Below, one piece after another: positions 445 through 46,969 of a DNA stretch of 64,000 bases. Numbering within the stretch: position 1 is the stretch's first letter; every line of letters begins with the position of its first letter. A program made the translations under genes and the position numbers. The notes beneath the pieces were generated by a model. That model was not told the DNA's origin. It saw nothing but the letters and a program-made list of their open reading frames with translations, and did no database searches. The DNA comes from Robiginitalea biformata HTCC2501 (lineage in GTDB: Bacteria; Bacteroidota; Bacteroidia; Flavobacteriales; Flavobacteriaceae): assembly GCF_000024125.1 (NCBI RefSeq), contig NC_013222.1:1652501-1716500 (forward strand), written 5' to 3'.

Positions 445-845
445 TCAGATGGGGCCCCGTTTGGATTCCCTCCCCCGCTTTGTTTAGCGACATCCTCTCC
501 CCAATCTACCAGCTCCCAAAAGGCCGCAGGGCCGTCGGGCACGACCATGCCCGCAAAATCCGCAGCGATGAATCGCCGGGGCGGGTGTCCCGCCGGGGCC
601 TTCATACAATAACCCAGGAGGAAGTGAAATAAATCTTCAGGGGAGTAGTGTAGCCGGTATTCCCGACGCACTTCGCTGCTCGCCTGTAGGCAGGTATCCG
701 GTTCAAAGGGGTGGTCAAGGCAGGAGAGGCCGGAGGCTTTGCTGATTTCCTGCACAACGCGGAGGCCTGCATCGGTCTGCCCGGTGATATGGGTTCCGAA
801 CCAGCGGGTCAGATCCCGGTATATCAATGATACTTCAGGCTTCAT
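441..845 (-). CDS. Hypothetical protein of the NO-defence operon
   Basis: This 134-residue soluble protein is not recognised. It has four Cys residues (in GLSCLDH, DTCLQ, LLGYCMK) and a C-terminal low-complexity tail (SGGGNPNG). No signal peptide or membrane segment is seen. The ATG at 845 overlaps the stop of the truncated globin gene by four bases, a typical translational coupling, so it is the last gene of the ric-globin operon. By context it may act in nitric oxide or iron-sulfur stress, but nothing in its own sequence proves that. Confidence 0.7.
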   Translation of the reverse strand: MKPEVSLIYRDLTRWFGTHITGQTDAGLRVVQEISKASGLSCLDHPFEPDTCLQASSEVRREYRLHYSPEDLFHFLLGYCMKAPAGHPPRRFIAADFAGMVVPDGPAAFWELVDWGEDVAKQSGGGNPNGAPSD

Positions 846-1231
846 CGTTTGCGGGCCTCGTAGATTTTAAGAAACAGCATCGTACTCATTTTCCGCGCCC
901 GGTTTTTGGCAATCCAGGCATTATCCCCCTCAAAGAGTTCGTCCAGGGTTTCCGTCCACAGGTTGATCCACTGGCCAAAGTGGTCCATGGTAATGGTGCC
1001 ACCACTTTGTACATCCACCTGCTGATGAGCCGTAACAGGGTTGCCCCAGTATTTTTTCACCGGGAAGAGCTGGCTTTCCCAAAAGTCCGTCAATACCTCA
1101 AAATGGCCTTCCCAGTCGGTGATGTTTTGCTCAAAAATGGGCCCGAGTACCGGGTGCTGCCTGATTTTACCGTAGAATGTGCGCACGAGCCGTGCTACAT
1201 CCTTCCGATTTGCAATATCGCCTTTTTCCAT
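842..1231 (-). CDS. Group III truncated hemoglobin
   Basis: The 129-residue protein has the length and pattern of group III (trHbP) globins: the N-terminal VRTFYGKIRQHPVLGPIF helix pair, the LTDFWESQLF helix, and a C-terminal DHFGQWINLW segment carrying a conserved His that is a candidate heme ligand. Such globins bind O2 or NO and are thought to dioxygenate or scavenge NO in the cytoplasm. I chose ATG 1231 because residues upstream in the longer frame are the antisense of ric and not globin-like. It starts 7 bases after the ric stop and is followed by an overlapping hypothetical gene. Co-transcription with ric supports NO detoxification. Confidence 0.9.
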   Translation of the reverse strand: MEKGDIANRKDVARLVRTFYGKIRQHPVLGPIFEQNITDWEGHFEVLTDFWESQLFPVKKYWGNPVTAHQQVDVQSGGTITMDHFGQWINLWTETLDELFEGDNAWIAKNRARKMSTMLFLKIYEARKR

Positions 1232-1238
1232 AGTCCGA

Positions 1239-1979
1239 TTAGCCGCGGTTGCCGGAAGGCGCTGTGAATACCCGTTCCAATTCCTGCGCTTTCGGGAACA
1301 GGATGTTGTTTTCCAAATGGATATGCCGGTGGAGGTCGGCTTCAAATTCCTGCAACAGGGCGTAGGCCACACGATAGGTGGCACAAGCGTCCGAAGGGGC
1401 CTGGTAGTCGTCGCTGAGCGCCGCGATTTTGCGGAAGCGTTCCCCTTCGTTGTCGTGTTCGTCCATCATGGCGGCAATCGGGTTTTTTACGGTCTTGAAT
1501 TTAGGTCGTCCGGGAGAAGTCCCGCTTTGCCGGGCGTTTTCCATCTTGCGAATCCAGGGGAACAGTACCAGTTCTTCTTTTTTCATGTGCATGGCGAGTT
1601 CCCCGGCAGATGCGTACAGATGCTCCCGGATCTCGTGGAGTTCCGGGTGGCGCTCACCGTGGACCTTACAGAGTTTGTCCAGGTATTGCTTTAGGGTGGG
1701 CAGCGTGGCCTCCACATACCGGTGGTGGATTTTTTCGATGTAATCAGCCAGGAGGTCCAGGGGCCAGGAGGTACAATCTTCCCGGGGCCCTTCGCTCCTG
1801 AGGACTGCTGTCAGTTCTTGCAGGAGGTTATCCGGGTCAAGTCCTTTTTTGAGGGCCACTTCTGCAACCGTCCGGTTGCCCTTGCAGCAAAAGTCGATCT
1901 TGTGTTTTTTGAATACCTGGGCCGTACGATAGTCGTCGGCTACCCATTGGCCGATTGGTTGTTGGAGTGTTTGTTCCAT
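1239..1979 (-). CDS. ric: Iron-sulfur cluster repair di-iron protein (RIC/ScdA/YtfE)
   Basis: The product (246 aa) repairs Fe-S clusters damaged by nitric oxide or oxidants and works in the cytoplasm through a hemerythrin-type di-iron site. The N-terminal DUF542 (ScdA_N) domain shows the adjacent cysteines C31-C32 in IDFCCKGNRT. The hemerythrin-like domain follows, with His/Glu ligand motifs KIHHRYVEA, MHMKKEELVLFPWI, DEHDNEGE and HIHLENNILFP. The length matches full-length ScdA-type proteins. It is the first gene of ric-globin-hypothetical. A palindrome at 2046-2069, shared with the Rrf2 gene promoter, lies 67 bases upstream, which predicts control by the neighbouring Rrf2 regulator. Confidence 0.95.
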   Translation of the reverse strand: MEQTLQQPIGQWVADDYRTAQVFKKHKIDFCCKGNRTVAEVALKKGLDPDNLLQELTAVLRSEGPREDCTSWPLDLLADYIEKIHHRYVEATLPTLKQYLDKLCKVHGERHPELHEIREHLYASAGELAMHMKKEELVLFPWIRKMENARQSGTSPGRPKFKTVKNPIAAMMDEHDNEGERFRKIAALSDDYQAPSDACATYRVAYALLQEFEADLHRHIHLENNILFPKAQELERVFTAPSGNRG

Positions 1980-2045
1980 GGCGTTGTACTTGGAGTTAAT
2001 GATATTTTAAGGGTTTTAAATTGGGAATCCGGACGGTTACCTGAT

Positions 2046-2069
2046 AATTAGGATAACATTATCCGAATT
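2046..2069. promoter_or_regulatory. Predicted Rrf2 operator upstream of ric
   Basis: A 24-bp imperfect palindrome reads AATTAGGA-N8-TCCGAATT, with an inner perfect GGATAA-CA-TTATCC. The same AATTAGGA-N8-TCCGA architecture occurs in front of the Rrf2 gene itself (2575-2598). It lies between the Rrf2 stop and the ric start, so it is well placed to control ric, the globin and the third gene. The assignment to Rrf2 is inference from location and sequence match. Confidence 0.7.
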
Positions 2070-2106
2070 CTTACCAAAAATTTTTTATTCATCGTCAGGC
2101 TCCAGC

Positions 2107-2541
2107 TCAGCGCTTCAGGTAGCTGATCCCACTCCCGACCCCCAGGGTCATATCGTGGATGCTGGTGGTTTCCAACAAGGCCTTGAGCCGGTCCCGCACT
2201 TCGACGAATTCCCAGTGCACCGGACAGGGCTTATGTTCGTTGCATTTTTTCAGCCCCAAACCGCAACCCTCATAGACGCGGTTGCCGTCTACGACGGAAA
2301 CGATATCTGCCAGCCTGACTTCTCGGATCCGTCCTTCGCTCATCTCAAAACCCCCTGAGGCACCTTTAACGGAATCGACAAGGCCATTTCGCGATAATTG
2401 CTGGAGTATCTTGGCCGTGAAGGCCACTGGTGAATCGATAGCATCCGCAATCTCCTTTAAGCTGACCCTTTGCCCTTCCAGGGATTTGTGGGCGATATAT
2501 ACCACCGCCCGAATTCCATATTCGCAGGCTTTTGAAAACAT
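2107..2541 (-). CDS. Rrf2-family transcriptional regulator (NO/redox sensor, NsrR/IscR-like)
   Basis: The 144-residue protein has the Rrf2 winged helix at the N-terminus (SKACEYGIRAVVYIA, then VSLKEIADAI...AFTAKILQQL). The central cysteines in YEGCGLGLKKCNEHKPCPVH follow the spacing that ligates an Fe-S cluster in NsrR/IscR-type sensors, which makes it a probable cytoplasmic NO or redox-responsive repressor. It sits directly upstream of ric and globin in the same direction. A palindrome at 2575-2598 lies in its own promoter and another of the same design in front of ric, so autoregulation plus control of the NO operon is expected. The family call is firm; the signal is inferred. Confidence 0.92.
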   Translation of the reverse strand: MFSKACEYGIRAVVYIAHKSLEGQRVSLKEIADAIDSPVAFTAKILQQLSRNGLVDSVKGASGGFEMSEGRIREVRLADIVSVVDGNRVYEGCGLGLKKCNEHKPCPVHWEFVEVRDRLKALLETTSIHDMTLGVGSGISYLKR

Positions 2542-2634: not shown

Positions 2635-3477
2635 TCAGAGAAGCAAAACCGGATTCTTTGTATTCCTGAGGATACGGGCACTATCCGGGCTTTTGATCCC
2701 TATTCGCTGCCATATATTGGGTTTTTTTCGAAAATGGCCCAGGAGTTTGCCGTTTGTTCTCAGGACACCGGAGAAAGCGTTGAAATATCCGGAACGACCC
2801 AGGTCCTGAAAGGAATTGGTAACGCCGTTGAGCCGGCTGCGCCATGCCAGTTTCTGTTTCCTGTAGTCGGCCTCCGCGACATGACCGCGGCAAGCTGTCA
2901 GCACACGGACACTCGCATGGCAAAGTTGGGCAACCTCGCTCATCCGGGTTATCTGTTCCGGATCGGCCAGTCGGGAAAGATCGGCTAAAAGAAGGATCTC
3001 GCAACGTGTTTCAAACCGGGCCCCCACCGGCACGACCAGTAATGGAATATTGCGGATTTTCCTGGCGATTCGCAAAACTTTCCTGCTATAAGGTTTGTCG
3101 GAACAGATTGTCATTCCGCACATGCCCATGACCAGCAGGTCGATGTTGTTGGCTTTCATCACTTGTTCTATAGCCTGTTCCAGTCCTCCCGCATGACTGA
3201 TGGCATAATATTTATGGCCGTCCGCCGGCCTTTCTTCCATGATCCGGCTCAGGATCCTGCCAAGTCCCCGTTCGGAATGCTGCCGGTATTGGGTATTCAG
3301 TCCATCGTCCGGGTCGAGTGCGTGCATCCGGTTCGGTCCAAATCCCTCACGCCGATAGCAGTTGAGGAGATATATGTCGCAGCCTTCACCCTGGAAAAGC
3401 CTCCGGGCATATTCCAAAGCTTCCCAGGCATTTTTTGAAAAATCTGTAAGGACGAGAATATTCTGGATGCCCATCAC
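2635..3477 (-). CDS. Universal stress protein, tandem UspA domains
   Basis: At 280 residues this is a double-length Usp. The first domain opens with NILVLTDFSKNAWEALEYA and contains the DLLVMGMCGMT segment; the second, more diverged domain follows RNIPLLVVPVGARF and starts at EILLLADLSRLADPEQ. Tandem Usp proteins are cytoplasmic stress proteins, often nucleotide-binding; the classical G-2x-G-9x-G(S/T) ATP motif is not clear here. The start overlaps the preceding gene by four bases (either of two adjacent Met codons). It is the last gene of the seven-gene operon that begins at 6948 behind a sigma-54-like promoter, so it is probably induced with gdhA and the Rnk-like proteins. Confidence 0.85.
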   Translation of the reverse strand: MMGIQNILVLTDFSKNAWEALEYARRLFQGEGCDIYLLNCYRREGFGPNRMHALDPDDGLNTQYRQHSERGLGRILSRIMEERPADGHKYYAISHAGGLEQAIEQVMKANNIDLLVMGMCGMTICSDKPYSRKVLRIARKIRNIPLLVVPVGARFETRCEILLLADLSRLADPEQITRMSEVAQLCHASVRVLTACRGHVAEADYRKQKLAWRSRLNGVTNSFQDLGRSGYFNAFSGVLRTNGKLLGHFRKKPNIWQRIGIKSPDSARILRNTKNPVLLL

Positions 3478-3878
3478 GATGTTCTTTGGTGTTGATACCT
3501 GTTTCCAGTCAATTTCAGCAGTAATGCCCGACGGACTTCGCGGTAATTCAGCAGGTGCTCCCTAAAGGCCTGCCGATGTTTTTCAAAATTGTTTAAATAA
3601 AAGGAATCGCAGGCGATGCTGTCGCATTCCAGGGCATTCCGCATGTCGTGCTCGTATCTGTTCAAGGCGGACATTTTGAGCATGTTGTCTCGTTTGAGTT
3701 GCTGAAGCTGGCTGGCAATTGCCGGGTTTTTCAACAGGCGTTGTTCAATCGCTGCAAGGATCCTTAGTTCCTCGCTGATAACCTCCAGGTCGTAGGACCA
3801 GGATCGCACATCGCGCCGATCCTTTTTAAACATGATTTGGTGATCCGTTTCGTGTTCGTAGAATGTTCGCAAATTCAT
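3474..3878 (-). CDS. Hypothetical helical protein of the Usp operon
   Basis: This 134-residue charged protein is predicted to be almost fully helical, with coiled-coil-like stretches (EVISEELRILAAIEQRLL, SQLQQLKRDNMLKMSALNRY, NYREVRRALLLKLTGN). It has no signal peptide, no membrane segment and no domain I recognise. It overlaps the Rnk-like gene upstream and the Usp gene downstream by four bases each, so the three are translationally coupled. Position suggests a stress-related accessory role, which is inference only. Confidence 0.8.
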   Translation of the reverse strand: MNLRTFYEHETDHQIMFKKDRRDVRSWSYDLEVISEELRILAAIEQRLLKNPAIASQLQQLKRDNMLKMSALNRYEHDMRNALECDSIACDSFYLNNFEKHRQAFREHLLNYREVRRALLLKLTGNRYQHQRTS

Positions 3879-4294
3879 ATCAATAGATTTGTGTCAATAA
3901 AAACAGGTTCCTGTTCTACCTTTTCAATCCGTAGTCGCTTGGGACCCGAGGGAAACTCCCAGGAAACCGTATCGCCTTCGGCATACCCGAAGAGCGCGAT
4001 TCCCATGGGTGTGAGGATGGAAATCTTGTCTTTGCTGACGTCCCTCTCGGGGGGGAGCACCAGCTGTACACGACGGCTCCAGCCATTTTCCGATGTGACG
4101 GTTATAATTGAGTGGAAGCGCACTACGTCGTTTTGCATTTCCGCCTCGTCCACGATTTTGGCGGAATCGAGTTCGGTGAGCAACTTCTGAATGGATTGCC
4201 AAAGCGTGGCATCGTGGTAATGGGCACTCAGGTTTACGTACCGTTTCAGCAGGACGTATTCCTTTTTCTCAATAAGTAATTGTTTGTATTTCAT
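3875..4294 (-). CDS. Rnk/GreA-GreB C-terminal domain protein (first copy)
   Basis: The 139-residue protein ends in the FKBP-like C-terminal domain of GreA/GreB/Rnk factors: ISILTPMGIALFGYAEGDTVSWEFPSG is the typical pattern (..PLG.ALLG..GD.V..). The N-terminal half is a short helical segment and not the long coiled coil of a true GreA, so it resembles Rnk, which binds RNA polymerase in the cytoplasm. ATG 4294 was chosen because residues further upstream are the tail of gdhA in another frame. It follows gdhA by 10 bases and overlaps the next gene. A second copy (6499-6948) heads the operon. Confidence 0.85.
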   Translation of the reverse strand: MKYKQLLIEKKEYVLLKRYVNLSAHYHDATLWQSIQKLLTELDSAKIVDEAEMQNDVVRFHSIITVTSENGWSRRVQLVLPPERDVSKDKISILTPMGIALFGYAEGDTVSWEFPSGPKRLRIEKVEQEPVFIDTNLLI

Positions 4295-4304
4295 CTTGTT
4301 GTGA

Positions 4305-5597
4305 TTATGGGAAAATTCCGCGCTGCGTATAGGCATCCGCCAGCCGCTCAATCGCGATGATGAATGCAGCCGATCGCCAGTCTACCTGGCGCTCCTCAGC
4401 CTCCGCTGTCACCCGGTTGAAAGATTCGCGCATTTTCTTTTCCAGGCGGTCCATCACTTCTTCCATGGGCCAGATTTCACTGTTTTTGTTCTGGAGCCAT
4501 TCAAAATAACTGCCGATGACCCCACCGGAATTACAGAGGATATCCGGGATGATATCCACCTGTTTTTCCAAAAGGATGGCTTCGGCCGAAACGTCTGTGG
4601 GCCCGTTGGCACCTTCCGCAATCAGGGAAGCCTTGATGTCCGGGGCGTTTTTTGCCGTGATCTGGTTTCCAAGTGCAGCGGGGATAAGTATGTCACAGTC
4701 CAGGCCAAAGAAATCCCCGCTGTCTATCGGGCTGGCTTTTGAAAACCCGTGAATCCGGCCCCTGTTGGCACGGGCGTATTCGGCAAGTTCCCCTACGTCG
4801 ATACCTTCGGCCCGGTATAGGGTGCCGGAAGCATCCTGTACGCCAATCAGGACCCCGCCTTCTTCCTCCAGGAAGTGCGAAGCCCAGTAGCCCACGTTTC
4901 CAAATCCCTGAACGGCAAAAGTTTTGCCGTGAAGGGTATGGCCCCGGGTTTCTGCCCAGAATTTAATCGTCAGGTATACGCCATATCCGGTTGCCCGGTC
5001 CCTTCCGGCCGATCCCCCAGCACCTATCGGTTTGCCGGTAACCACGTGGAGGTTCGTGGAGCGTTCGGCAGGGGACTTGGTACTCATGTAGGTATCCAGT
5101 ATCCACGCCATGGTTTGGGCGGTGGTATTGACGTCCGGCGCGGGGATGTCCAGCTCCGGCCCGATGTTGTCCCCGAGGGCGAATGTAAAACGGCGCGTGA
5201 TCCTCTGGAGTTCTTCCTGGGAGTAGCGTGACGGATCGAGCTGGATTCCCCCTTTAGCCCCGCCAAAAGGCAGTCCGGCCAGGGATGTTTTCCAGGTCAT
5301 CCACATGGCCAGTGCCTTGGCGGCGTCTATATCCACGGTGGGGTGATAGCGCAACCCCCCTTTGTAGGGGCCGAGTGCATTGTTGTGCTGAACGCGGTAG
5401 CCAGTGAATATTTTCACTGTCCCATCATCCATACGCACGGGAAAATGAACCAGTAGCTCGTTGTTTGTGACTTCCAGTATCTTGCGGATATTCGGATTCA
5501 GTTCCAAAAGGTCCGCGGCATGATCGAATTGCCGCATGACATTATCCAGCATGCCCTGTTTTACAGGCTTTTTTGATTTCGGTTCTTTTATAACCAT
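4305..5597 (-). CDS. gdhA: Glutamate dehydrogenase (Glu/Leu/Phe/Val family)
   Basis: The enzyme interconverts glutamate and 2-oxoglutarate plus ammonium with NAD(P) in the cytoplasm. At 430 residues it has the hexameric GDH length. Substrate-domain motifs are present: GPYKGGLRYH, WKTSLAGLPFGGAKGG with the catalytic lysine near 115, and GPELDIPAPDVNT. The nucleotide-binding fold shows VQGFGNVGYWAS near residue 220, and the C-terminal half contains LIAEGANGPT and ILCNSGGVIGSYFEW. It starts 13 bases after the small Cys-rich gene and is followed after 10 bases by the Rnk-like gene. Placement inside a Usp/Rnk operon suggests use under stress or nutrient limitation. The coenzyme preference cannot be read with confidence. 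Confidence 0.95.
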   Translation of the reverse strand: MVIKEPKSKKPVKQGMLDNVMRQFDHAADLLELNPNIRKILEVTNNELLVHFPVRMDDGTVKIFTGYRVQHNNALGPYKGGLRYHPTVDIDAAKALAMWMTWKTSLAGLPFGGAKGGIQLDPSRYSQEELQRITRRFTFALGDNIGPELDIPAPDVNTTAQTMAWILDTYMSTKSPAERSTNLHVVTGKPIGAGGSAGRDRATGYGVYLTIKFWAETRGHTLHGKTFAVQGFGNVGYWASHFLEEEGGVLIGVQDASGTLYRAEGIDVGELAEYARANRGRIHGFSKASPIDSGDFFGLDCDILIPAALGNQITAKNAPDIKASLIAEGANGPTDVSAEAILLEKQVDIIPDILCNSGGVIGSYFEWLQNKNSEIWPMEEVMDRLEKKMRESFNRVTAEAEERQVDWRSAAFIIAIERLADAYTQRGIFP

Positions 5598-5609
5598 GAT
5601 TCAGATTAT

Positions 5610-5810
5610 TTATAAAATTGATTCTTCGATTGGAGCTCGGGTGTAGGCTTTTCTAATGGGTTGGGTTCGCCTACTTGCCTTGTGTGGCGCCAATCGGTCG
5701 GCCCGGTGCTCGTATTCGCTGCAGGAACTGATGCGGCCCTTATCCATTGTGAGCCGACACGATACCAGATAGGTACATGTCGAGCAGAGACTTCTTTTGT
5801 ATAGATCCAT
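5610..5810 (-). CDS. Small Cys-rich protein
   Basis: This 66-residue reading frame begins at ATG 5810, 10 bases after the membrane-sensor gene, and ends 12 bases before gdhA. It carries C9-x2-C12-x5-C18-x11-C30 in the first half (LCSTCTYLVSCRLT ... SSCSEYE), a spacing that suits a zinc or Fe-S site, followed by a basic tail. I recall similar short CxxC proteins ending in a CSEYE-like motif from Bacteroidota, but cannot name a family. The overlapping 77-codon frame on the same strand has no such pattern and I reject it. Role unknown. Confidence 0.62.
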   Translation of the reverse strand: MDLYKRSLCSTCTYLVSCRLTMDKGRISSCSEYEHRADRLAPHKASRRTQPIRKAYTRAPIEESIL

Positions 5811-5820
5811 TTTCGCAGTG

Positions 5821-6468
5821 TTAATTGAAATTCATCCATTCGCCTGCAGGCTGATTGTCTGGTCGTTTATTGGGATAGAACACCAGGACCAGGATGAGGA
5901 TGCCGATCAATACCATAAACGCAACCTCGAGTTTGGATAAGAGCTTGTTCATGCCGAGGGATTTCTTCGAAATTGCGGTCAGTTCTTCACTTTCTTTAAG
6001 CTGGACCTGCACCAGTCCATCCAGTTTGCGGTGGATGCCCCGGAGGATGGCCAGCCCCTCGGCTCGTTTTCCCATACGTTCGCCGTTGCCAGGCAATACG
6101 GTATCCGCCTCCCAATTGTGTAAATTCTCGAACTCGCGCACGAGTTCCCTGAAGAGTACGGTCTCTTCGGGGGTAAGGTAGGTCGCACCCAGTGACGTGA
6201 TGAGCTCTTCGGCCTTTTGTCGGTCGGCCTCTAAATCCGCCCCGTTTTCCATGCCGGCAAGCCGCAGTTCCCTTTGGTGGACCATGTTGTTGAGTTCGTA
6301 TAAGTACCCCTGGACAACCACGCGGTCCTTGTAAACGGAATTAACCGTATGCTGAACAGTTGTGAAGTGCTTTTGATCCAACCGATTGGAGCCGAGGACT
6401 AATAAAAAGGCCAGTGCCAGGATCAAACCTGCCTGGATGCGTTGGGCCATTGTGAGTCTGGTGAACAT
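5821..6468 (-). CDS. 4-helix-bundle MCP-like membrane sensor without output domain
   Basis: The 215-residue protein has two membrane helices, one at about residues 12-28 (GLILALAFLLVLGSN) and one near 178-200 (LEVAFMVLIGILILVLVF). They enclose a periplasmic all-helical domain of about 145 residues resembling the 4HB_MCP ligand-binding domain of chemoreceptors. Only about 15 residues remain on the cytoplasmic side, so the signalling helical hairpin, HAMP or kinase part of an MCP is absent. It lies between the second Rnk-like gene and the Cys-rich gene with small gaps. It may pass a signal to the nearby soluble kinase (8444-9535), which is inference. Confidence 0.75.
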   Translation of the reverse strand: MFTRLTMAQRIQAGLILALAFLLVLGSNRLDQKHFTTVQHTVNSVYKDRVVVQGYLYELNNMVHQRELRLAGMENGADLEADRQKAEELITSLGATYLTPEETVLFRELVREFENLHNWEADTVLPGNGERMGKRAEGLAILRGIHRKLDGLVQVQLKESEELTAISKKSLGMNKLLSKLEVAFMVLIGILILVLVFYPNKRPDNQPAGEWMNFN

Positions 6469-6498
6469 GATTTGAATTTTTTTTAAGGTGTTAGGTTG

Positions 6499-6948
6499 TT
6501 AAATGGCGGTGGAAGGTTCCGGACTGGTCCCGGGTGCCAGACTAATGGAAGTGGTGTGGTTACTACTGATTTTGGCAATTGTGAGGGACATCGTATTCCC
6601 CGGTTGGCCGAACAAAATGACATCTCCTTCAGATCGGCCGATAATCGAAGCTCCCAAAGCGCTGATAACTGATATATCGCCGGGGGTTGTAATGGGTTTC
6701 CCTGAGGAAGCTAACCGGACGGTTCGTCGATATGACGGGACGCCTTTCAGGGTCACCCAGACATCTGGACGTACCACGTCGTCGGGGCATTCACCCTGAT
6801 CCAGGATTAAGGCAGATGCCATGTTCCTCTTGAGTAGCCTCGCGGCGTGTTGGTGGGCGTAGTCATCGTATACCCGATTCGCCTCCAGGGACATCAGCAG
6901 GGCATCGTATTCCTGCCTTTCAAAAACGAGTTTTCCGTATTTCATCAT
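6499..6948 (-). CDS. Rnk/GreA-GreB C-terminal domain protein (second copy)
   Basis: This protein (about 149 aa) has the same layout as the one at 3875-4294: a short helical N-terminus (MKYGKLVFERQEYDALLMSL) and a C-terminal GreA/Rnk-like FKBP fold with DISVISALGASIIGRSEGDV. It probably binds RNA polymerase in the cytoplasm. Two adjacent Met codons (6948, 6945) are the best starts, because the sigma-54-like promoter at 6974-6990 would put the transcript start only slightly upstream. It is the first gene of the operon. Its C-terminus has an extra Ser/Thr/Pro-rich tail (SLAPGTSPEPST). Confidence 0.82.
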   Translation of the reverse strand: MMKYGKLVFERQEYDALLMSLEANRVYDDYAHQHAARLLKRNMASALILDQGECPDDVVRPDVWVTLKGVPSYRRTVRLASSGKPITTPGDISVISALGASIIGRSEGDVILFGQPGNTMSLTIAKISSNHTTSISLAPGTSPEPSTAI

Positions 6949-6973
6949 AGCTTGGGTTTCTGACCCAGTACAT

Positions 6974-6990
6974 TTCAATTGCCGTGCCCA
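6974..6990 (-). promoter_or_regulatory. Predicted sigma-54 (-24/-12) promoter
   Basis: On the minus strand the sequence TGGGCACGGCAATTGAA matches the sigma-54 consensus YTGGCACGRNNNTTGCW at all but two fixed positions: the GGCACG core and the TTG of the -12 element are kept, with GA in place of GC at -12. Spacing between the boxes is correct. It is 26-29 bases upstream of the first operon gene and downstream of the NtrC-type regulator gene. A GTTTT-N4-AAAAC palindrome at 7012-7025 could be an activator site. Computed by eye only. Confidence 0.6.
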
Positions 6991-7091
6991 AACAATAGAG
7001 ACAACTAGAATGTTTTGTCAAAAACCTGAAATAGAGATGGTTGGAAATAATTTATGAAGCACTGAAAAAGCAGGGACCGGGTATTTTCTCC

Positions 7092-7118
7092 CCAGTTGGG
7101 GAAAAACGCCCCAACTGG
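7092..7118 (-). terminator. Hairpin after the response regulator gene
   Basis: A 10-bp perfect stem (CCAGTTGGGG / CCCCAACTGG) with a 7-base loop sits immediately after the stop codon of the response regulator. No clear T-run follows on the minus strand, so it may be a weak intrinsic terminator or an mRNA 3-prime protecting hairpin that separates the regulator genes from the operon downstream. Confidence 0.55.
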
Positions 7119-8444
7119 CTATTTGAGTTTTTCCCGCAATGTCTTCCGGTCGATCTGCAGGATTTCGGCAGCCCGCGTTTTGTTTCCTCCCGTATGCGCC
7201 AATACGCGGCGGACGTAATCCCGCTCCATCTCCCGGAGGCTTGCGAAACCATCCTGGGGAAAATCAATCTGGAATTTCAGGTGGCCCGGGAGGTGTTCCG
7301 GCCCCACGGTACCATCGCTCATAATTACGGCGCGCTGGATGACATTCTCAAGTTCCCGGATATTGCCCGGCCAATGGTAGTCTTGCAGAATCTGCAGGGC
7401 CTCCGGGTCGATCTTCAATAACCGATCCCGGTATTCCACCCCGTATTTTTGAAGGAACCGGGTGGTCAACAATGGAATGTCCGATTTTCGGTCGCGCAAC
7501 GGGGGGACCTCGATCTCCACTACGGTGAGCCGATAGAATAAATCTTCTCGAAACTCCTTTTTGGCAATCGCTTCGCGGAGGTTGCTGTTGGTCGCAGCGA
7601 TAACACGCAAATCTACCTTCTCGGTTTTGCGGGAGCCCACTTTGGTGATTTCCTTTTCCTGCAAGGCACGCAGTAATTTTGCCTGGACAGCCTGGGAGGC
7701 CGACCCGATTTCATCGAGGAAAAGGGTTCCCCTTTCTGCTGCCTGAAAGAAACCTGTCCGTGTTTCCCGGGCATCCGTAAAGGCGCCCTTTACGTAACCG
7801 AACAGTTCGGCTTCCTGCAGGTTTTCAGGAATCGCAGCACAGTTGACCGCAACAAAAGGACCCCTGGCGAATTTGCCCGAATAATGCACCGCCCGGGCTA
7901 CGAGTTCTTTTCCTGTCCCGCTTTCCCCGTGGACGAGTAAGGTGGCCCGGTTGTCCCTGACACGTGAAATGATTTCCACCAGGTTCCGGAATGGTTGGGA
8001 ATCACCCACCATCTCGGCGTATCCCGCACCGGTGGAGAGGGTAGGGGCAGTGGGGGCATCTGGCTTCCTGCTGTCGGATGCAAGGGCCTTCCGGACAGCT
8101 TGTTTCAACTCCTCTCTGGTAAAGGGTTTGGTGAGGTAATCCGCGGCCCCGGACCGAAAGGTTTCCTGTGCTCCCGCCACGGAGGGGTATCCCGTAATGA
8201 CCAGTTTGGGCATGCCCGGGTAGTGCTCCTCCGCATATCGGACCAACTGCAGCCCGTCCACTTCCGGCATCTGTATATCGGTTATCAACAAATCAATCGG
8301 GGAGTCCTTCAGGATAAAAAGTGCCTCTTTGACGGACAGCGCTTTGAAAGTGTGGTAGCCCAGCGACTGGAGATGGCGCTGTAACAGCTCCAGGATGCCG
8401 ACGTCGTCGTCGACCATCAGGATGTTTTCTTTCCGCAGGCCCAT
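7119..8444 (-). CDS. Sigma-54-dependent response regulator (NtrC family)
   Basis: The 441-residue protein has three parts. The receiver (1-120) has acidic VDDD at 11-14, the phosphorylation site D56 in LLITDIQMP and K106 in LTKPF. The AAA+ sigma-54 activation domain (about 145-380) has Walker A GESGTGKE at 173-180, GAFTDA at 220-225 and Walker B LFLDEIG. A Fis-type helix-turn-helix ends the protein (GNKTRAAEILQIDRKTLREKL). The sigma-54 contact loop reads GAFTDA instead of GAFTGA. Its start overlaps the kinase stop (TAATG), so they form one two-component unit. The likely target is the adjacent operon behind the sigma-54-like promoter. Confidence 0.95.
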   Translation of the reverse strand: MGLRKENILMVDDDVGILELLQRHLQSLGYHTFKALSVKEALFILKDSPIDLLITDIQMPEVDGLQLVRYAEEHYPGMPKLVITGYPSVAGAQETFRSGAADYLTKPFTREELKQAVRKALASDSRKPDAPTAPTLSTGAGYAEMVGDSQPFRNLVEIISRVRDNRATLLVHGESGTGKELVARAVHYSGKFARGPFVAVNCAAIPENLQEAELFGYVKGAFTDARETRTGFFQAAERGTLFLDEIGSASQAVQAKLLRALQEKEITKVGSRKTEKVDLRVIAATNSNLREAIAKKEFREDLFYRLTVVEIEVPPLRDRKSDIPLLTTRFLQKYGVEYRDRLLKIDPEALQILQDYHWPGNIRELENVIQRAVIMSDGTVGPEHLPGHLKFQIDFPQDGFASLREMERDYVRRVLAHTGGNKTRAAEILQIDRKTLREKLK

Positions 8445-9535
8445 TAGTCCAATTTAGGAAAATCCACGGTAAACACCGTACCCTTTGGCCGGTTAGGCTT
8501 GTGGGTGATCGAACCTCCGTGGCTGCTTACAATGCCATGGACCACACTGAGTCCCAGGCCCGATCCCTCCCCCAGGGGCTTTGTCGTAAAAAATGGTTCG
8601 AAAACTTTCTCCGAAATAGCCGGATCAATTCCACTTCCCTCATCAGAAACCGAAATGAGAACACGGTTGTTCTTTTCGCGTACCGCTATGGTAATCCGGC
8701 TTTTTTCGGGTGAGGCGTAAATAGCATTCATTACCAGGTTAAAGAGGACCTGAGTTATCTGAATCCGGTCTACGTGCAACTGGATGTCCCGGTCGGGCAG
8801 GGTAGACGAGTAGGTTAATTGCTTGGAACGAAAGTTTGGGGTTAACAGGGAAACCACCTCTTCAATGGCCGTGTTCAAATGGATAGATTCCACTTTTTGG
8901 GGGATCTCGCAGGCAAAAAACATAAGCTTCTTTACCACTTCGCGTGAAAAAATGGCGTTCTCGATAATCCGGTCCAGGTCTTCGATTGTTTTTGGGTCGG
9001 TAGCCCGTTCCTGGATCAATTCGGCAAAACCCAGGATGTTGGCCAGTGGCGTATTGAGTTCGTGCGCAATCCCGGCCGTAATTTCACCCAGGATGTTCAG
9101 CCGGTCCGTTCGCTCCACTTGCCGCCGGATCAGGGCTTCCTGTTCCCGGATATTTTTACGCTCCATCAGGCTTCCAAGGGCCAGACTGACACTATGGAGA
9201 AGATCCCGTTCCTCTTCCAGAAAGTCTGAATGCCCGTATTTCTGTGTCGGATATCCCACGCGGATTTCCCCTTCGGGCTCGTTAAATACCCGGATGTCAG
9301 TGGACAACATGAGCAGGTCCTCCCGGAATGCCGGAGTGTTTGCCTCAAATTCCCCGCACCGGATGGATACCTCAGCATCTGAGGCGTATTGCCAGGCCCG
9401 CTGCAGGCATTGCGCGATGGCCGAAAACGAATCTTCCATCCGGTCGAAATTCGTGTTTACGATAATGGAAGTCACCTCGTAGAGGCAGGTCAGCTCCTTG
9501 ATGCGTTCCCTTAACTTGGCTTCAGTATTATTCAT
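8444..9535 (-). CDS. Soluble sensor histidine kinase
   Basis: The 363-residue kinase has no membrane segment. A GAF-like N-terminal region (about 10-125, beginning CLYEVTSIIV) is followed by a HisKA domain with the phospho-accepting H158 in GEITAGIAHELNTPLANILG. A HATPase_c domain completes it, with N box NLVMNAIYAS, G1 DEGSGID, F box FEPFFTTK and G2 GEGSGLGLSVV. Start codons at 9535 or 9538 fit best; the longer frame upstream is not kinase-like. It autophosphorylates and should transfer phosphate to the regulator whose gene overlaps its stop. The cytoplasmic input suggests an internal signal or a partner such as the 4HB membrane protein. Confidence 0.93.
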   Translation of the reverse strand: MNNTEAKLRERIKELTCLYEVTSIIVNTNFDRMEDSFSAIAQCLQRAWQYASDAEVSIRCGEFEANTPAFREDLLMLSTDIRVFNEPEGEIRVGYPTQKYGHSDFLEEERDLLHSVSLALGSLMERKNIREQEALIRRQVERTDRLNILGEITAGIAHELNTPLANILGFAELIQERATDPKTIEDLDRIIENAIFSREVVKKLMFFACEIPQKVESIHLNTAIEEVVSLLTPNFRSKQLTYSSTLPDRDIQLHVDRIQITQVLFNLVMNAIYASPEKSRITIAVREKNNRVLISVSDEGSGIDPAISEKVFEPFFTTKPLGEGSGLGLSVVHGIVSSHGGSITHKPNRPKGTVFTVDFPKLD

Positions 9536-9787: not shown

Positions 9788-11041
9788 ATGCAAGAGAACC
9801 TACCGCACATCCTGCTCGATTTCCTGGTCGATTCAGGGGTCAGTGAGTCGGTGGCGCAGCAGATCAACCTGTGGCTTTTGTTGCTGGTGATCCTGCTGGT
9901 CGCCTGGCTGATGGACCTGCTGATCTGGAAGGTGTTGCGCCTGGTTTCCGTCCGGCTTTCCCGCCGAACGCGGACCCGGTTCGACGATTTCCTGGTGGCC
10001 AACCGGGTACCGAGGTATGTGGCCCATATCTTCCCGCTTCTCTTTTTGATGGAAGTTTTGCCGCTGGCCTTTGTGGATTTTGAGTACATGCAGCGACTGG
10101 TAGACCGTATCCTCATGGTGATGGGCGTTTTGCTGGGGCTGTTTGTGATCAAAAGCGTACTATCCAGTGCGCGGGATTACCTCAAGACGCTGCCCCACCT
10201 GCGCGACAAACCCCTGGACAGCTATATACAGGTAGTGATGATCTTTTCCTGGATCGGCGGTATCCTGACCATCCTGGCCATCCTCACCGATACGACCATC
10301 TGGAAATTTTTTACAGCCCTGGGGGCGGCGTCGGCCGTGGTGTTGCTGATCTTTAAGGACTCCATCCTGGGCCTAGTGGCGAGCATACAGGTGAGCATCA
10401 ACGATATGGTGCGTATCGGCGACTGGATTACCTTTGAGAAGTACGGGGCCGACGGGGACGTGATCGAGATCAGCCTGGCGACGGTGAAAGTGCAGAACTT
10501 CGACAAGACGATCACCACCATCCCCACCTATGCGCTGATTTCCGATTCGTTTAAAAACTGGAGGGGGATGCAGGCCTCCGGGGGCCGCCGCATCAAACGC
10601 GCCCTGCATATCAGCCAGCGGAGCATCCGTTTCCTGAGCCCGGAGGATGTGGAGTCCCTGAAGAAAATCCAGCTCATCGGGCCGTACCTCGCGGACCGGT
10701 CGGAGAAAATCGACGCCCACAACGCCCAGAACAATATCGACAAAAGCCTGGCCATCAACGGCCGGAACCTGACCAACATCGGGGTCTTCCGCAAGTATAT
10801 CCAGGAATACCTGGAGAACAACCCGGCCATCCACAAGAAGATGACCCTGATGGTGCGGCAACTGCCGCCAACGGCCCAGGGAGTACCCCTGGAAATTTAC
10901 GCCTTCAGCCGGGACAAGAAGTGGGAGAACTACGAGTATATCATGGCGGACATCTTCGACCACCTCCTGGTGGCCCTGCCGTATTTTGACCTGGAATTGT
11001 TTGAATTCCCGGTGCATTTTCCGGGGGTAGCGGATGCGTAG
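9788..11041 (+). CDS. MscS-family mechanosensitive channel (YbdG-like)
   Basis: The 417-residue inner-membrane protein has about five hydrophobic helices in the first 190 residues (WLLLLVILLVAWLMDLLIW, ILMVMGVLLGLFVIK, YIQVVMIFSWIGGILTILAIL). The pore helix and beta domain of MscS follow: FFTALGAASAVVLLIFKDSI, then LGLVASIQVSINDMVRIGDWI, with the beta-domain end TTIPTYALISDSFKNW. The long C-terminal cytoplasmic part with GGRRIKRALHI matches the YbdG/MscM branch, which opens on osmotic downshock. It is transcribed divergently from the kinase and is followed by a terminator at 11207-11240. Confidence 0.92.
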   Translation: MQENLPHILLDFLVDSGVSESVAQQINLWLLLLVILLVAWLMDLLIWKVLRLVSVRLSRRTRTRFDDFLVANRVPRYVAHIFPLLFLMEVLPLAFVDFEYMQRLVDRILMVMGVLLGLFVIKSVLSSARDYLKTLPHLRDKPLDSYIQVVMIFSWIGGILTILAILTDTTIWKFFTALGAASAVVLLIFKDSILGLVASIQVSINDMVRIGDWITFEKYGADGDVIEISLATVKVQNFDKTITTIPTYALISDSFKNWRGMQASGGRRIKRALHISQRSIRFLSPEDVESLKKIQLIGPYLADRSEKIDAHNAQNNIDKSLAINGRNLTNIGVFRKYIQEYLENNPAIHKKMTLMVRQLPPTAQGVPLEIYAFSRDKKWENYEYIMADIFDHLLVALPYFDLELFEFPVHFPGVADA

Positions 11042-11206
11042 GCGGGTTTGTAAGCGGGCTGGTTTTTAGGAGTACCTCGCTGCGCTCATGGTCCGGACCG
11101 GGTGGTATTGCGGGCGATTTGGGAACCCAATTATTGAAAACCTTGTGTTGATCAAACTTGGATATAATTAGGATTTTATCCGACTTTGTCTGGTTCGGTT
11201 ATTTGG

Positions 11207-11240
11207 GTGAGGTTTAAATTTGAACCTCCACTTTTTTGAA
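11207..11240 (+). terminator. Rho-independent terminator after the channel gene
   Basis: The inverted repeat GAGGTTTAAA / TTTGAACCTC (11209-11228, one mismatch) is followed by CCAC and a TTTTTT run on the plus strand. It lies about 165 bases after the channel stop. No gene is seen in the 279 bases between that stop and the convergent SDR gene. Confidence 0.65.
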
Positions 11241-11320
11241 TTTTTAGGTTAAACCGTATGCCAATATAAATTGTCCTGTACTTAAAAAGGACCGGCATCT
11301 ATTGAGATAGCCAGGTTCGA

Positions 11321-11992
11321 TTACCAGTCCCGGACGGTTCCCCGATGCCAGAAATGACCACTTGCGGCATCACTTTCTAGTAAATTCAATAGTTCCAAAG
11401 CTACTTCACCTGGGTTTCGCGTAGCCTGACTCCCGCCCATATCGGTTCGAATCCACCCCGGGTCAAAGGAAGAGACCCTTATATTTCTGTCGACGAGTCG
11501 TTCAGCCAGCACTTTCGTATACATGTTCAACGCTGCTTTTGACATTTTGTAATGCGGTTGGTAGGGGGAAGAGGAACCGCTAAAAGAACCCCAATCTGAG
11601 GCAACGTTTATAATATGGGCTTTCGGTCTTAAAAGAGGAAGCAGCCCCTCAGTAAGGGCCACCGTTCCAAAAAGGTTAACTTCGAAAGTTTGTCTGAGCA
11701 ATTCCTGAGTAATTTCCGTTGAATCCCATTCTTCCAGCAATATGCCAGCGTTGTTCACCAAAAAGTCGAGTTCAATACCCTCCATTTCAGAGACAAAAGA
11801 CCTGATGGAGTCCGGATCGGACAAATTAAGTGCAAAACCGCTAAATTGTGCATGTTCACAGGAATGAGCGCCAGTTGTGGAGGTGCCTATTATCTGGTAG
11901 TTTCGGATCTCCGCCAATAGCTTGGCTGTTGACAGGCCAAAGCCCCGGCTGGCTCCCGTGATGATACCGACTTTTTCATGAGAGTTTCTCAT
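11321..11992 (-). CDS. Short-chain dehydrogenase/reductase
   Basis: This 223-residue classical SDR shows the Rossmann glycine motif TGASRGFG near residue 12, NNAG near 85, a catalytic Ser in INVASDWGSFSGS and YKMSK (Tyr-x3-Lys) near 145. It should be a cytoplasmic NAD(P)-dependent oxidoreductase with an unknown substrate. The GWIRTDMGG segment after the active site is typical. It lies 71 bases downstream of a serine hydrolase gene on the same strand and may be the tail of that operon. Confidence 0.9.
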   Translation of the reverse strand: MRNSHEKVGIITGASRGFGLSTAKLLAEIRNYQIIGTSTTGAHSCEHAQFSGFALNLSDPDSIRSFVSEMEGIELDFLVNNAGILLEEWDSTEITQELLRQTFEVNLFGTVALTEGLLPLLRPKAHIINVASDWGSFSGSSSPYQPHYKMSKAALNMYTKVLAERLVDRNIRVSSFDPGWIRTDMGGSQATRNPGEVALELLNLLESDAASGHFWHRGTVRDW

Positions 11993-12063
11993 AAGGCGTT
12001 TTTGTTCATTAAAAAGAAACGCAAAACAGGGGTTTACATCTGGTCTTTCCCCGGTTCCTGGTG

Positions 12064-13155
12064 TTATTGCGTCTCTTGCTTATTACTCAGGGCAACTGTT
12101 GCAATTTCCCGTACCAGTTGGGTGGGCGATATACAATCGCAATTGGTGAGTCCTACTACATAGAGGTCTTTTTCGGGTAGGAACACCCCCATCGATTTAA
12201 AACCGAAAACGCTGCCGCCATGTTCGATGCTTTTGGCTCCTTCTATGGTCTTTATATGCCATCCATAACCGTATTCAACTGGGCTGCCGTCGGCCAGTTT
12301 TTTTGGGCTCAAGGCCAATTCCAAAGTCCTCCGTGTCACCAGCTTTTCGGTTTGGAGGGCCCGCTGCCATTTCAGGAGGTCATCCGATGATGCCATGAGT
12401 GCGCCGGAGGCGTAGGGTATATTCATGCTGATGTGCAATTTATTGGTGTAACCTTTCCTGTTGTGGTAGCCATACGCCCGATTGGGGACGATTTCCCTGT
12501 AATGCGCATAGCGGGAATCGGTCATTCCTGCCGGAGTAAACAATTCCGATTCGATATACTCTTCATAGGATTTCCCTGAGACCTTTTCAATGATGTAACC
12601 GAGCAGCACATACCCGGAATTATTGTATTTGAATTGAGTTCCCGGCTTAAAGTCCATTGGTTCGTTCTTGAAGAAATCGATCAGTTCTTGGGGTCTGAGG
12701 TCCTTCCGGGCAATTTCCATAATGGATCTCATGCTTGTGAAGTCCTTAATCCCTGAGGTGTGGTTGAGCAAGTGGTGGATGGTTACCGAACCTTCGGGTG
12801 TTGGATAATCTGGGATAAACCGGCGAACGTCGTCTTCCAGGTGCAGTCTTCCTTCTTCCATGAGTTTCAGAATGGCGATGGCCGTGAACTGTTTGGTCAT
12901 TGACCCAATCTGGAATACCTGATCGGGTTTCATCGGTACCTGCAATTCCAGGTTGGCCTGCCCGAATGCCTTACGGTAAAGGATTGAATCACCGCGGGCC
13001 ACGAGCACCACTGCTCCTGGTCCTTCTGAAGGTATTTTTTCGGTAATAAGCGAATCAATTTGACTATTCAGATTCTGAGCAACCGCTAAGCCGTGCCAGC
13101 AAAAAGCGCAGATATAAAAGAAAAAAACAAGAAAAGCGTTCGTTACCATTTTCAT
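12064..13155 (-). CDS. Secreted serine hydrolase (class C beta-lactamase family)
   Basis: The 363-residue protein starts with a signal peptide (about residues 1-26, ending in GLAVAQ). It has the serine beta-lactamase/DD-peptidase motifs: S-x-x-K in GSMTKQFTA, Y-x-N as YNNSGYVLLGY and HGG in IEHGGSVFGFKS. It is a periplasmic or exported hydrolase of the PBP4*/esterase/beta-lactamase group; the substrate cannot be told. It follows the amidohydrolase gene by 18 bases within a run of hydrolase genes (16744 to 12064). Confidence 0.9.
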   Translation of the reverse strand: MKMVTNAFLVFFFYICAFCWHGLAVAQNLNSQIDSLITEKIPSEGPGAVVLVARGDSILYRKAFGQANLELQVPMKPDQVFQIGSMTKQFTAIAILKLMEEGRLHLEDDVRRFIPDYPTPEGSVTIHHLLNHTSGIKDFTSMRSIMEIARKDLRPQELIDFFKNEPMDFKPGTQFKYNNSGYVLLGYIIEKVSGKSYEEYIESELFTPAGMTDSRYAHYREIVPNRAYGYHNRKGYTNKLHISMNIPYASGALMASSDDLLKWQRALQTEKLVTRRTLELALSPKKLADGSPVEYGYGWHIKTIEGAKSIEHGGSVFGFKSMGVFLPEKDLYVVGLTNCDCISPTQLVREIATVALSNKQETQ

Positions 13156-13173
13156 AAAATGAAATTTTTAAGA

Positions 13174-14532
13174 TTAATGAGATTGTGTACCACTGGCGAA
13201 TGGTCCCAGTTTTTGTACCTCTTCCAACATCCGGTTGATATGTGACCGATCTATCCACCTTCCCCGAAGGATAACCCCAGAGATCTTGCGGCTATTCCGG
13301 ATGTCTTCAAGCGGGTTGTCTTCCAGTAAAACCAGGTTAGCCTGTTTTCCTATTTCAACAGTCCCTTCCAGCTTTTCACGGCCCAGGTAGCGGGCCGGGA
13401 TAACCGTACTGGCCTTCAGGATTTGATAGGGGCTCATGCCGGCCTTGTTCAGTAATTCAAATTCGCGGTGCAGGGAAATACCTGGCACTGTAAAACCGAA
13501 TGTATCGCTTCCGGTCATCAGGGGGACTCCCTCCTTGTGCAGAAGTCTGGTGTATTCCATCATCCATTCAAAATATTCCCTCAGCACAGGAAGTGCCTCT
13601 CTGCCTTTTATATTTTTTCCCTTAAGGTCTTTTCGGTACGGATTATCTTCAGAAACCCAGTAATCGTAATCGCCGGCAAGCATGTATTTAGCCTCTGGTA
13701 CTCTTGGGAGATTTTTAAACACAGGATCGTCTAGATAGCGCAGGATGTCTTTAAACACCACCAGGGTAGGAGCAATGGTCACTCCGCTTTGGGCAATTTG
13801 ACGGAGTGAAGCCTGGAGAAATAAAGGATCGACCCGTTCTTTGTCGGAGTAGATATATACAAACTCTTCCACGTGCTCGATAGACCTCATTTTAACGGAA
13901 AATTTCAAAGGCATCTCCCGTTGGCCATGTCCGATAACCGGGATTCCTGCCTTGCCGGCCTCATCAATTAAGGCCAGGAATTGTTCCTGCGGCAGGTTGT
14001 CGGCCAATTTTATGAAATCGTAGCCTCGATTGAGGTGGTTCCGGACCGTTTCTGAAATGGTCCGGCTGTCAGCTAAGTTTTCTGCCTTCAGGTAAGGCCC
14101 TGTGGTATAATAATTCGGACCAAAAAGGTCTCCGCTCCGTACCTGGTCCCGGATGGTAATTTGGTCTTGCCAGTCATATTCGCCCATGTTGCGGGCAGTG
14201 GTAATCCCATGGGCCAGCATCAGGTTAAAATCGCGCTGGATACCCCCTTCCCGGTTGCGCCAATGGTAGTGCATCTCCGAAAAACCAGGCATCAAATATT
14301 TTCCACGACCATCGATTAATGTAGCCCCTTTATTACTCATCTCACTGTCGCTCGGCCCCAGTTCGATGATTTCATTTCCCTGTATAACGACCCGTTGGTT
14401 TTCCAGAATAACTTCCCCGGTCATGGGAATCACATTTACGCGGTCTATGACCAGTAAGGCTTTCTGATCGATCTGTGCCATTCCCACAGCCAGTGCCGCT
14501 TGGAATAGGATGGGTATAAACAGTTTTTTCAT
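13174..14532 (-). CDS. Secreted amidohydrolase family protein
   Basis: The 452-residue protein has a short signal peptide (ending near VGMAQ) and the imidazolonepropionase/prolidase-like amidohydrolase layout. The metal-site strand GKYLMPGFSEMHYHW has His-x-His, a later GIPVIGHGQRE supplies His and an MTGSDTFGF motif supplies the conserved Asp. The C-terminal LGREKLEGTVEIGKQANLVLLEDNP is the usual composite beta-sandwich return. It likely hydrolyses amide or peptide-like bonds outside the cytoplasm. It lies 4 bases after one serine hydrolase gene and 18 before another, so the three form one operon. Confidence 0.88.
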   Translation of the reverse strand: MKKLFIPILFQAALAVGMAQIDQKALLVIDRVNVIPMTGEVILENQRVVIQGNEIIELGPSDSEMSNKGATLIDGRGKYLMPGFSEMHYHWRNREGGIQRDFNLMLAHGITTARNMGEYDWQDQITIRDQVRSGDLFGPNYYTTGPYLKAENLADSRTISETVRNHLNRGYDFIKLADNLPQEQFLALIDEAGKAGIPVIGHGQREMPLKFSVKMRSIEHVEEFVYIYSDKERVDPLFLQASLRQIAQSGVTIAPTLVVFKDILRYLDDPVFKNLPRVPEAKYMLAGDYDYWVSEDNPYRKDLKGKNIKGREALPVLREYFEWMMEYTRLLHKEGVPLMTGSDTFGFTVPGISLHREFELLNKAGMSPYQILKASTVIPARYLGREKLEGTVEIGKQANLVLLEDNPLEDIRNSRKISGVILRGRWIDRSHINRMLEEVQKLGPFASGTQSH

Positions 14533-14536
14533 TCCT

Positions 14537-16744: not shown

Positions 16745-16910
16745 CTGTGGCTAACCGTTTTATAAATTGAAAGTCAAAACTAAAGGACACAGGGGTGGAT
16801 TTCCTTAACATAGGTTAAGAAAACCGGATCAATAAGGACTGAGATCACGTATTATGGCGCAAAAGAGTAATGCGCGGATTGAATAGCTCTTAAGGGGAAC
16901 TTGCCAAGAC

Positions 16911-17519: not shown

Positions 17520-17757
17520 AGTATCAACGAAAGCCAGAGAAAGGGTTAGCTCCCGGGAAGCTAATCCTGTAATAAGATAAGGAATATTTGCGGCGATGGG
17601 ATAGAAGTTGAAAGAATCCGAATTCTTTCCCCGGGGTTTCTGTGTGCTCATGAGGGTAATCTATTTTGAGAAGGCTGCTTTCTTAAGATAGATTATGAAT
17701 AATGAATATGCTGATTTTCAAATTTGTACCCAGAAGTAGAACTCAATACAGAAACCA

Positions 17758-44677: not shown

Positions 44678-44705
44678 GGCTGTTCGTTTTTTGATGATTG
44701 CGAAA

Positions 44706-44748
44706 CAAACATAACTAAAAAAATAGTTACCCAACTAAAAATATAGTT
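44706..44748 (-). promoter_or_regulatory. Promoter with two BlaI-type operators
   Basis: Two palindromes, TAACTA-N6-TAGTTA (44712-44729) and AACTA-N6-TAGTT (44733-44748), lie 21 bp apart directly upstream of and touching the -7 element TATGTTTG (44713-44706, minus strand). This arrangement blocks the promoter when the BlaI-type repressor binds. Confidence 0.85.
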
Positions 44749-46931: not shown

Positions 46932-46969
46932 GATTCCAAATAGTTTTATTGATACTTTTTTTCGACCGT

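Follow-up and report, generated by a model that had tools for sequence, protein, structure and literature searches.

What controls, and what joins, a run of seven tightly packed genes that follows a two-component system in Robiginitalea biformata HTCC2501? The window analysed here is a stretch of 64,000 nucleotides (bases 1652501–1716500 of a 3.53-Mb genome on one contig), and the genes in question encode a soluble histidine kinase and an NtrC-type response regulator, followed by two Rnk-like proteins, a glutamate dehydrogenase (GDH), a tandem universal stress protein (Usp) and three further proteins. From comparison with related loci we consider it probable that they form a complete two-component sigma-54 circuit with its own target operon, a stress regulon of the Flavobacteriaceae. 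All nine genes proposed by a first-pass annotation of this DNA were found by an open reading frame check where that annotation had placed them, with the gaps and overlaps it described. The kinase and regulator genes overlap by one base, the gap between the regulator gene and the first rnk gene is 170 bases, and the seven-gene run has gaps of 30, 10, 12 and 10 bases and then two 4-base overlaps.

8444..9535, minus strand: sensor histidine kinase, soluble (Pfam HisKA and HATPase_c)
7119..8444, minus strand: NtrC-type response regulator (Pfam REC, Sigma54_activat and HTH_8)
7075..7116, minus strand: putative enhancer, or upstream activating sequence (matrix from 65 relatives)
7012..7025, no strand: GTTTT-N4-AAAAC palindrome, unconserved
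6974..6989, minus strand: predicted -24/-12 promoter, GGGCACGGCAATTGAA
6499..6948, minus strand: first Rnk-like protein (Pfam GreA_GreB C-terminal domain, E 2.6e-7)
5821..6468, minus strand: 4HB membrane protein (weak match to Pfam 4HB_MCP_1)
5610..5810, minus strand: four-Cys peptide of 66 amino acid residues (alignment of 30 sequences)
4305..5597, minus strand: GDH (gdh), predicted second type (Pfam ELFV dehydrogenase)
3875..4294, minus strand: second Rnk-like protein (Pfam GreA_GreB)
3474..3878, minus strand: helical protein of 134 residues, family-less (alignment of 37 sequences)
2635..3477, minus strand: tandem Usp (usp) of 280 residues (Pfam Usp)

The promoter and enhancer ahead of the operon

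The first-pass annotation had proposed a sigma-54-type promoter in the gap after the regulator gene, and the comparison with relatives bears this out. A strict form of such a promoter, GG[CT]A[CT]N5TTGC, is present within 450 bases past the regulator stop codon in 65 of 77 relatives, compared to 122 of 7,700 random 450-base windows from the same loci (the 77 are those of the 92 distinct loci described below that gave a full-length regulator, 15 being excluded). In the window the corresponding minus-strand sequence is GGGCACGGCAATTGAA (6989 to 6974), in which the -24 GG is present with the standard spacing and the -12 dinucleotide is GA, not GC; it fails the strict form because of this GA. When scored with a matrix from the 65 relatives, from which the window was excluded, it ranks second among about 128,000 window positions and lies at the conserved place, with a score of 10.8 at the low end of the relatives (training minimum 10.7, median 19.8). 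The sigma-54 consensus as generally known was applied in one promoter scan, and a loose -24/-12 pattern alone is uninformative, with 142 matches in the strain's own genome against 76 in the control. There is one copy of rpoN in the genome (E 5.5e-52). The GTTTT-N4-AAAAC palindrome at 7012–7025, which the first-pass annotation had pointed out, is indeed present in the window, yet none of the 77 relatives has it, and we have discarded it as a candidate operator; it overlaps the TTGACA of a possible sigma-70-type promoter (7021–6992).

A candidate site for the regulator, overlooked in the first-pass annotation, is the conserved enhancer at 7075–7116. It spans 42 bases in the form GGG-N9-CCC-N4-GGG-N9-CCC, that is, two tandem dyads with A/T-rich centres, and its key positions are fixed among the relatives (e.g. 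C in 65/65) rather than varied in pairs, as judged without a formal covariation count. With the 65-relative matrix, the window again excluded, it scores 39.1 (37.6 on the minus strand), while a shifted register that overlaps it scores 4.8 and the next separate site on either strand of the window 4.4. The enhancer starts 128 bases upstream of the -24 GG in the window, so that there are upstream activator sites at about -100, and 126–130 bases upstream in 63 of the 65 relatives. Six loci have the promoter 172–341 bases past the regulator stop codon; the distance is 124–132 bases in five of these and 140 in the sixth, L051. Because the distance is largely kept even where the promoter sits far from the stop codon, the element goes with the promoter. 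The site itself is supported by its conservation, and we infer that the regulator binds the GGG-N9-CCC dyads.

Conservation of the gene set and of the paired elements

The related loci were gathered in two ways. The second rnk gene, searched with a limit of E 1e-10, had matches, weak ones included, in 46 of the 199 Flavobacteriaceae genomes, and 20 of these genomes were taken as regions. A scan of named genomes gave 306 rnk relatives, and the 80 best were retained. The resulting 100 loci contain eight duplicates, leaving 92 distinct loci; as selection was by rnk match, the counts apply to loci of the operon type and do not represent a random sample. The profiles of the two rnk genes merged on iteration, so that rnk is counted as one class. 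Most loci carry the names of Flavobacteriaceae genera, including Maribacter, Zobellia, Muricauda/Flagellimonas, Cellulophaga, Gillisia and Sinomicrobium, and a few are labelled more broadly or differently (two 'Bacteroidia bacterium', one 'Bacteroidetes bacterium' and one 'Cytophaga sp.').

Gene order is well kept among these loci. A kinase-regulator pair is followed by rnk in 78 of the 92, and in 69 the pair leads into gdh and after it rnk, all on the same strand; gdh adjoins rnk in 83. The 14 loci that have no adjacent kinase-regulator pair include early-ending contigs and second gene sets. Profile searches of the 92 loci found gdh in 83, the helical protein in 81, the four-Cys peptide and the regulator in 80 each, and the kinase in 79, with usp (36), the 4HB protein (34) and an MscS-type channel (19) being less frequent. 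The commonest order is kinase, regulator, (rnk), (small secreted protein), (4HB), four-Cys peptide, gdh, rnk, helical protein, (usp), (mscS), the genes in parentheses being optional, and at least two rnk genes are located downstream of the regulator in 39 of the 77 loci with a full-length regulator. The small, probably secreted protein (family f0, about 120 residues, e.g. L057:7868-8230) is encoded by one of the leading genes of the operon in 34 loci; it has no Pfam or NCBIfam match and is missing from the window. Genome G154 has a reduced set consisting of kinase, regulator, promoter pair, small secreted protein and 4HB protein. We also note that in genus g128 the loci L191 and L192 have a diverged kinase-regulator pair followed by other genes, and that L192 also has an enhancer-promoter pair, a weaker one, past the regulator.

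Of the 92 distinct loci, 87 carry the enhancer-promoter pair, and so do the window and L181. It is missing from L050, which has a weak -12 box, and from four contigs that stop near the operon start, and no pair was found in 1.78 Mb of reversed sequence. The overall count of 89 in 95 mostly overlaps the training set, and the matrix thresholds were of our own choosing; the held-out part is 25 of 30 sequences outside training, the window among them.

The pair is also found away from the operon start. An exact pattern of it matches seven times in the 199 genomes and not at all in the control. Six of these matches are 0.03–1.9 kb upstream of an operon-type rnk, and the remaining one, in a Kriegella genome, precedes an isolated 280-residue usp gene, the operon locus of that genome being without usp; the displaced Usp and the window Usp share 29% identity over 279 residues. 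A strain of Flagellimonas amoyensis has, in addition to a full operon (L080), a second gene set (L129) that lacks a kinase and regulator of its own but has the pair. Three pairs occur within one 20-kb stretch of L125, one of them 81 bases before pntAB (scores 10.4 and 23.0), one before the operon, and one 643 bases before a second rnk-usp group. In L101 and L107 the pair precedes the kinase gene itself, with a spacing of 115 bases. The presence of pairs at a displaced usp, at second gene sets, at pntAB and at the kinase gene is the behaviour of a regulon and not of one frozen operon. The pntAB transhydrogenase genes (L125:2755-5563), with their own copy of the pair, are a possible further member.

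The regulatory and target proteins

The best PDB match of the kinase AlphaFold model (predicted local distance difference test, pLDDT, 82) is the cytoplasmic domain of ZraS, over the catalytic part. Its N-terminal domain, for which Pfam names no family, appears small and GAF-like from the order of elements in the model. Across an alignment of 38 sequences, Cys13 and Cys205 do not vary. The regulator scores too low for every one of the 25 NCBIfam families listed out of 121 matching, with 408 of 714 bits for AtoC, 385 of 558.6 for NtrC and 375 of 760 for ZraR, and is thus not one of those listed equivalogs. A HisKA kinase with its regulator, upstream dyads and a -24/-12 promoter are general features of NtrC-family sigma-54 systems, and the locus resembles AtoSC, ZraSR and NtrBC in having a HisKA kinase, a REC-AAA-HTH_8 regulator, paired upstream dyads and a -24/-12 promoter. 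It differs from them in its soluble kinase with a small GAF-like sensor, its GGG-N9-CCC enhancer and its Rnk, GDH and Usp stress targets. The NorR-norVW system of E. coli is similar in its sigma-54 activator, several enhancer sites and a possible link to nitric oxide (NO), but NorR detects NO through its own GAF domain, without a kinase, and the targets differ. The Usp-rich hypoxia and dormancy regulons of DosR and Anr likewise place Usp and metabolic enzymes under a dedicated regulator; they differ in regulator type, promoter class and gene set.

The two Rnk-like proteins are 139 and 149 residues long and combine a GreA_GreB C-terminal domain with a short overall length. The family profile of the second matches 2pn0 (2.7e-18) and E. 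coli Rnk, 3bmb (3e-16), but since both proteins are under the 109-bit cut-off of the Rnk equivalog NF004396 (87 bits for the second, 30 for the first) we name them Rnk-like and not Rnk. They share with E. coli Rnk the character of a short GreA/GreB-type protein, and differ in that the genes are often duplicated and lie inside a sigma-54 operon. An excerpt of one study describes E. coli Rnk as having no assigned role, with a deletion that is without phenotype in normal growth (PMC4598747); the present locus gives proteins of this kind a dedicated stress context.

The first-pass annotation had connected the operon to nitrogen metabolism, and this stands to the extent that the operon holds a GDH; that protein, however, scores below every NCBIfam cut-off listed for it (e.g. 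272 bits against 536 for NF006929), and a NADP-specific GDH is encoded elsewhere in the genome (771 bits). By these scores the operon GDH is a second type and not NADP-specific. The Usp matches Pfam in its first half only (E 5.3e-11); the second half is read as a repeat from its length and from an alignment with L181, without a Pfam match.

Three uncharacterised families travel with the operon. The four-Cys peptide has the motif C-x2-C-x5-C-x11-C followed by SEY, with C9, C12, C18 and C30 invariant in 30 sequences; Pfam gives nothing above cut-off and NCBIfam no match, and it is likely a metal-binding mini-protein. The helical protein has 371 relatives in a protein database and, among 37 aligned members, conserved W27, E84-C85, C90-D91 and H98-E99; it is modelled as three helices (pLDDT 89), with no Pfam family over cut-off and no confident match in a structure search or a PDB sequence search. 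The 4HB protein matches Pfam 4HB_MCP_1 at E 0.002, which fails the cut-off, and has two transmembrane segments by eye and no output domain.

Taken together, the cytoplasmic kinase would phosphorylate the NtrC-type regulator, as expected from their families; the regulator would bind the two tandem dyads just past its own stop codon and activate RNA polymerase-sigma-54 at the conserved -24/-12 promoter about 128 bases downstream. The predicted single transcript would encode the two Rnk-like factors, the four-Cys mini-protein, the second GDH, the three-helix protein and the tandem Usp, and in some relatives the MscS channel also. The output is likely to be a protective, growth-slowing response in which the Rnk-like proteins would compete with Gre factors at RNA polymerase, and GDH and Usp would adjust metabolism.

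Neighbouring genes, the inducing signal and rival readings

Three genes follow the operon in the window, encoding an Rrf2 regulator, RIC and a protein that is globin-like, and the kinase gene is flanked by a divergent MscS-type gene, which in other loci is operon-terminal.

9788..11041, plus strand: MscS-type channel (Pfam)
2107..2541, minus strand: Rrf2 family regulator, the first of three neighbours with a possible link to NO
1239..1979, minus strand: RIC/ScdA di-iron repair protein (Pfam ScdA_N and Hemerythrin)
842..1231, minus strand: globin-like protein, 65% identical to a protein beside RIC in the Maribacter locus L102

The protein at 842..1231, which has no Pfam match over cut-off, we take to be truncated-haemoglobin-like. 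A membrane protein of 399 residues and of unknown family starts just left of the window (L173:18245-19444). The block of Rrf2, RIC and globin-like genes (window 842-2541) and the membrane protein also adjoins the operon in Maribacter loci that carry nos genes: L106 and L114 have all four, L102 and L104 have RIC, the globin-like protein and the membrane protein without Rrf2, and L092 has RIC and the membrane protein. Between the window genome and L102 the membrane proteins are 50% identical, and the globins 65%. All five Maribacter loci also hold nosL- and nosD-type genes (Pfam), whose neighbours are presumably nosFY. Rrf2 is near the operon in 13 of the 92 distinct loci. At the level of genomes, RIC occurs in 26 of the 38 that have the operon, compared with 54 of the 161 that do not (p 0.0002, or 0.005 once 43 genomes of less than 2.5 Mb are left out), where 'operon present' refers to the 38 of the 46 genomes whose rnk match has an E of about 3e-25 or lower and the eight weaker ones are counted as without.

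Several of our observations weigh against the proposed circuit, or against parts of it. Within the window, the -12 GA is unique among 91 enhancer-anchored sequences (GC 83, GT 6, GG 1), in a tally that leans towards GC, since its sites were chosen by a matrix with GC sites as training set. The contact loop of the window regulator is GAFTDA, whereas 76 of the 77 relatives, duplicates having been dropped, have GAFTGA and one (L101) has GAYTGA. A sigma-70-like TTGACA-18-TATTGT is located at 7021–6992, in the same gap as the -24/-12 element. The order of genes is kept in related loci, so that the proposal withstands the refuting condition that the first-pass annotation had set on gene order, but the kinase is present in just one of ten genomes of the window's genus, and its profile is rare phylum-wide, in nine of 395 genomes (E up to 1e-70), all of them in Flavobacteriaceae; four of these nine are from genus g128, with lower scores, and the two loci examined there are without the stress set. 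As for the signal, the p values of the RIC association ignore phylogeny, RIC is near the operon in just seven of the 92 distinct loci, and NosZ has no significant association with the operon (22/38 against 68/161, p 0.10).

The window-specific points could be explained if the operon of this strain has drifted from strict sigma-54 control, with transcription starting mainly at the sigma-70-like hexamers. The GA box, the GAFTDA loop and the absence of the operon, judged by the kinase, from nine of the ten genus genomes agree with this, and the sigma-70-like site in the gap keeps it alive; such sites are, however, no commoner in the region than in shuffles (5 found, 6.6 expected), the window keeps a high-scoring enhancer together with an intact -24 box and spacing, and six relatives have a -12 GT. 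Another activator encoded in this genome also has GAFTDA, and an excerpt of a Desulfovibrio study includes this form among the natural loop variants that would retain activity (PMC4641369); in another excerpt, NorR with GAFTDA (G266D) is constitutive (PMC2941729). We think drift an unlikely account. GAFTDA and the GA box together could mean a joint change or decay, between which one case cannot decide, and as both are unusual, we regard it as likely, and no more than that, that the operon of this strain depends strictly on sigma-54. Another reading takes the conserved inverted repeat downstream of the regulator gene for an RNA hairpin, acting as a terminator or attenuator, and in the window there is a 10-bp stem right past the stop codon, with the whole 186-nt stretch folding somewhat better than shuffles (z -1.9). 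Its position tracks the promoter and not the stop codon, it recurs before pntAB and upstream of a displaced usp that has no regulator gene nearby, its key letters are fixed rather than varied in pairs, and it was neither called by a terminator scan nor matched in Rfam; from these points, and from the modest fold score, we have rejected this very improbable reading. That the genes are clustered by chance or locally, without common regulation, has next to no probability: nothing was found in its favour, and it is contradicted by the conservation of gene order and of the enhancer-promoter pair in many genera.

Greater uncertainty attaches to what the kinase senses. A redox- or NO-related signal is the most likely inducer, although weakly supported: the NO-repair neighbours recur in the window and the five Maribacter loci, RIC is associated with the operon, and the kinase has two invariant Cys residues, but with the null result for NosZ this is a lead and not a result. 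The regulon could be real and respond to nitrogen or carbon starvation or to osmotic downshift; the GDH, the MscS channel in some loci and pntAB as a possible extra target agree with this alternative, the NO-repair neighbours, RIC association and invariant Cys residues speak against it, and we give it a little less than an even chance. Returning to a circuit that senses redox or NO, we can speculate, in a reading that is rather unlikely, that it is a sigma-54 'transcription brake' of the Flavobacteriaceae, in which a soluble redox or NO kinase would bring about the displacement of Gre factors from RNA polymerase by twin Rnk-like factors, metabolism would be rebalanced by GDH, Usp and (in one genome) transhydrogenase, and the co-changed GAFTDA loop and GA -12 box would give an altered or signal-independent activator, as in NorR G266D.

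A sigma-54 regulon of this make-up is apparently unreported. No description of the gene set was found among the open-access papers listed by the searches (most subscription papers were outside the search), and the set is not mentioned in an excerpt of a broad in-silico sigma-54 survey that includes Flavobacteriia (PMC12316311). Because dozens of genomes display the regulator, enhancer, promoter and targets together, a whole Bacteroidota sigma-54 regulon becomes testable in cultivated strains, and the locus draws attention to the four-Cys, three-helix and 4HB families that accompany it.

A plasmid search and an Rfam search found nothing. Elsewhere in the window, at 45918-49317, are what we take to be two different glutamine-synthetase-like genes, arranged head to head. 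Four beta-lactamase-like serine hydrolases are recognisable by eye (12064-13155, 14537-16009, 37671-39134 and 43196-44734), and just to the left of the window are sulfatase-like and SusC/SusD-like genes, also identified by eye (L173:4878-8120 and 10237-18197).

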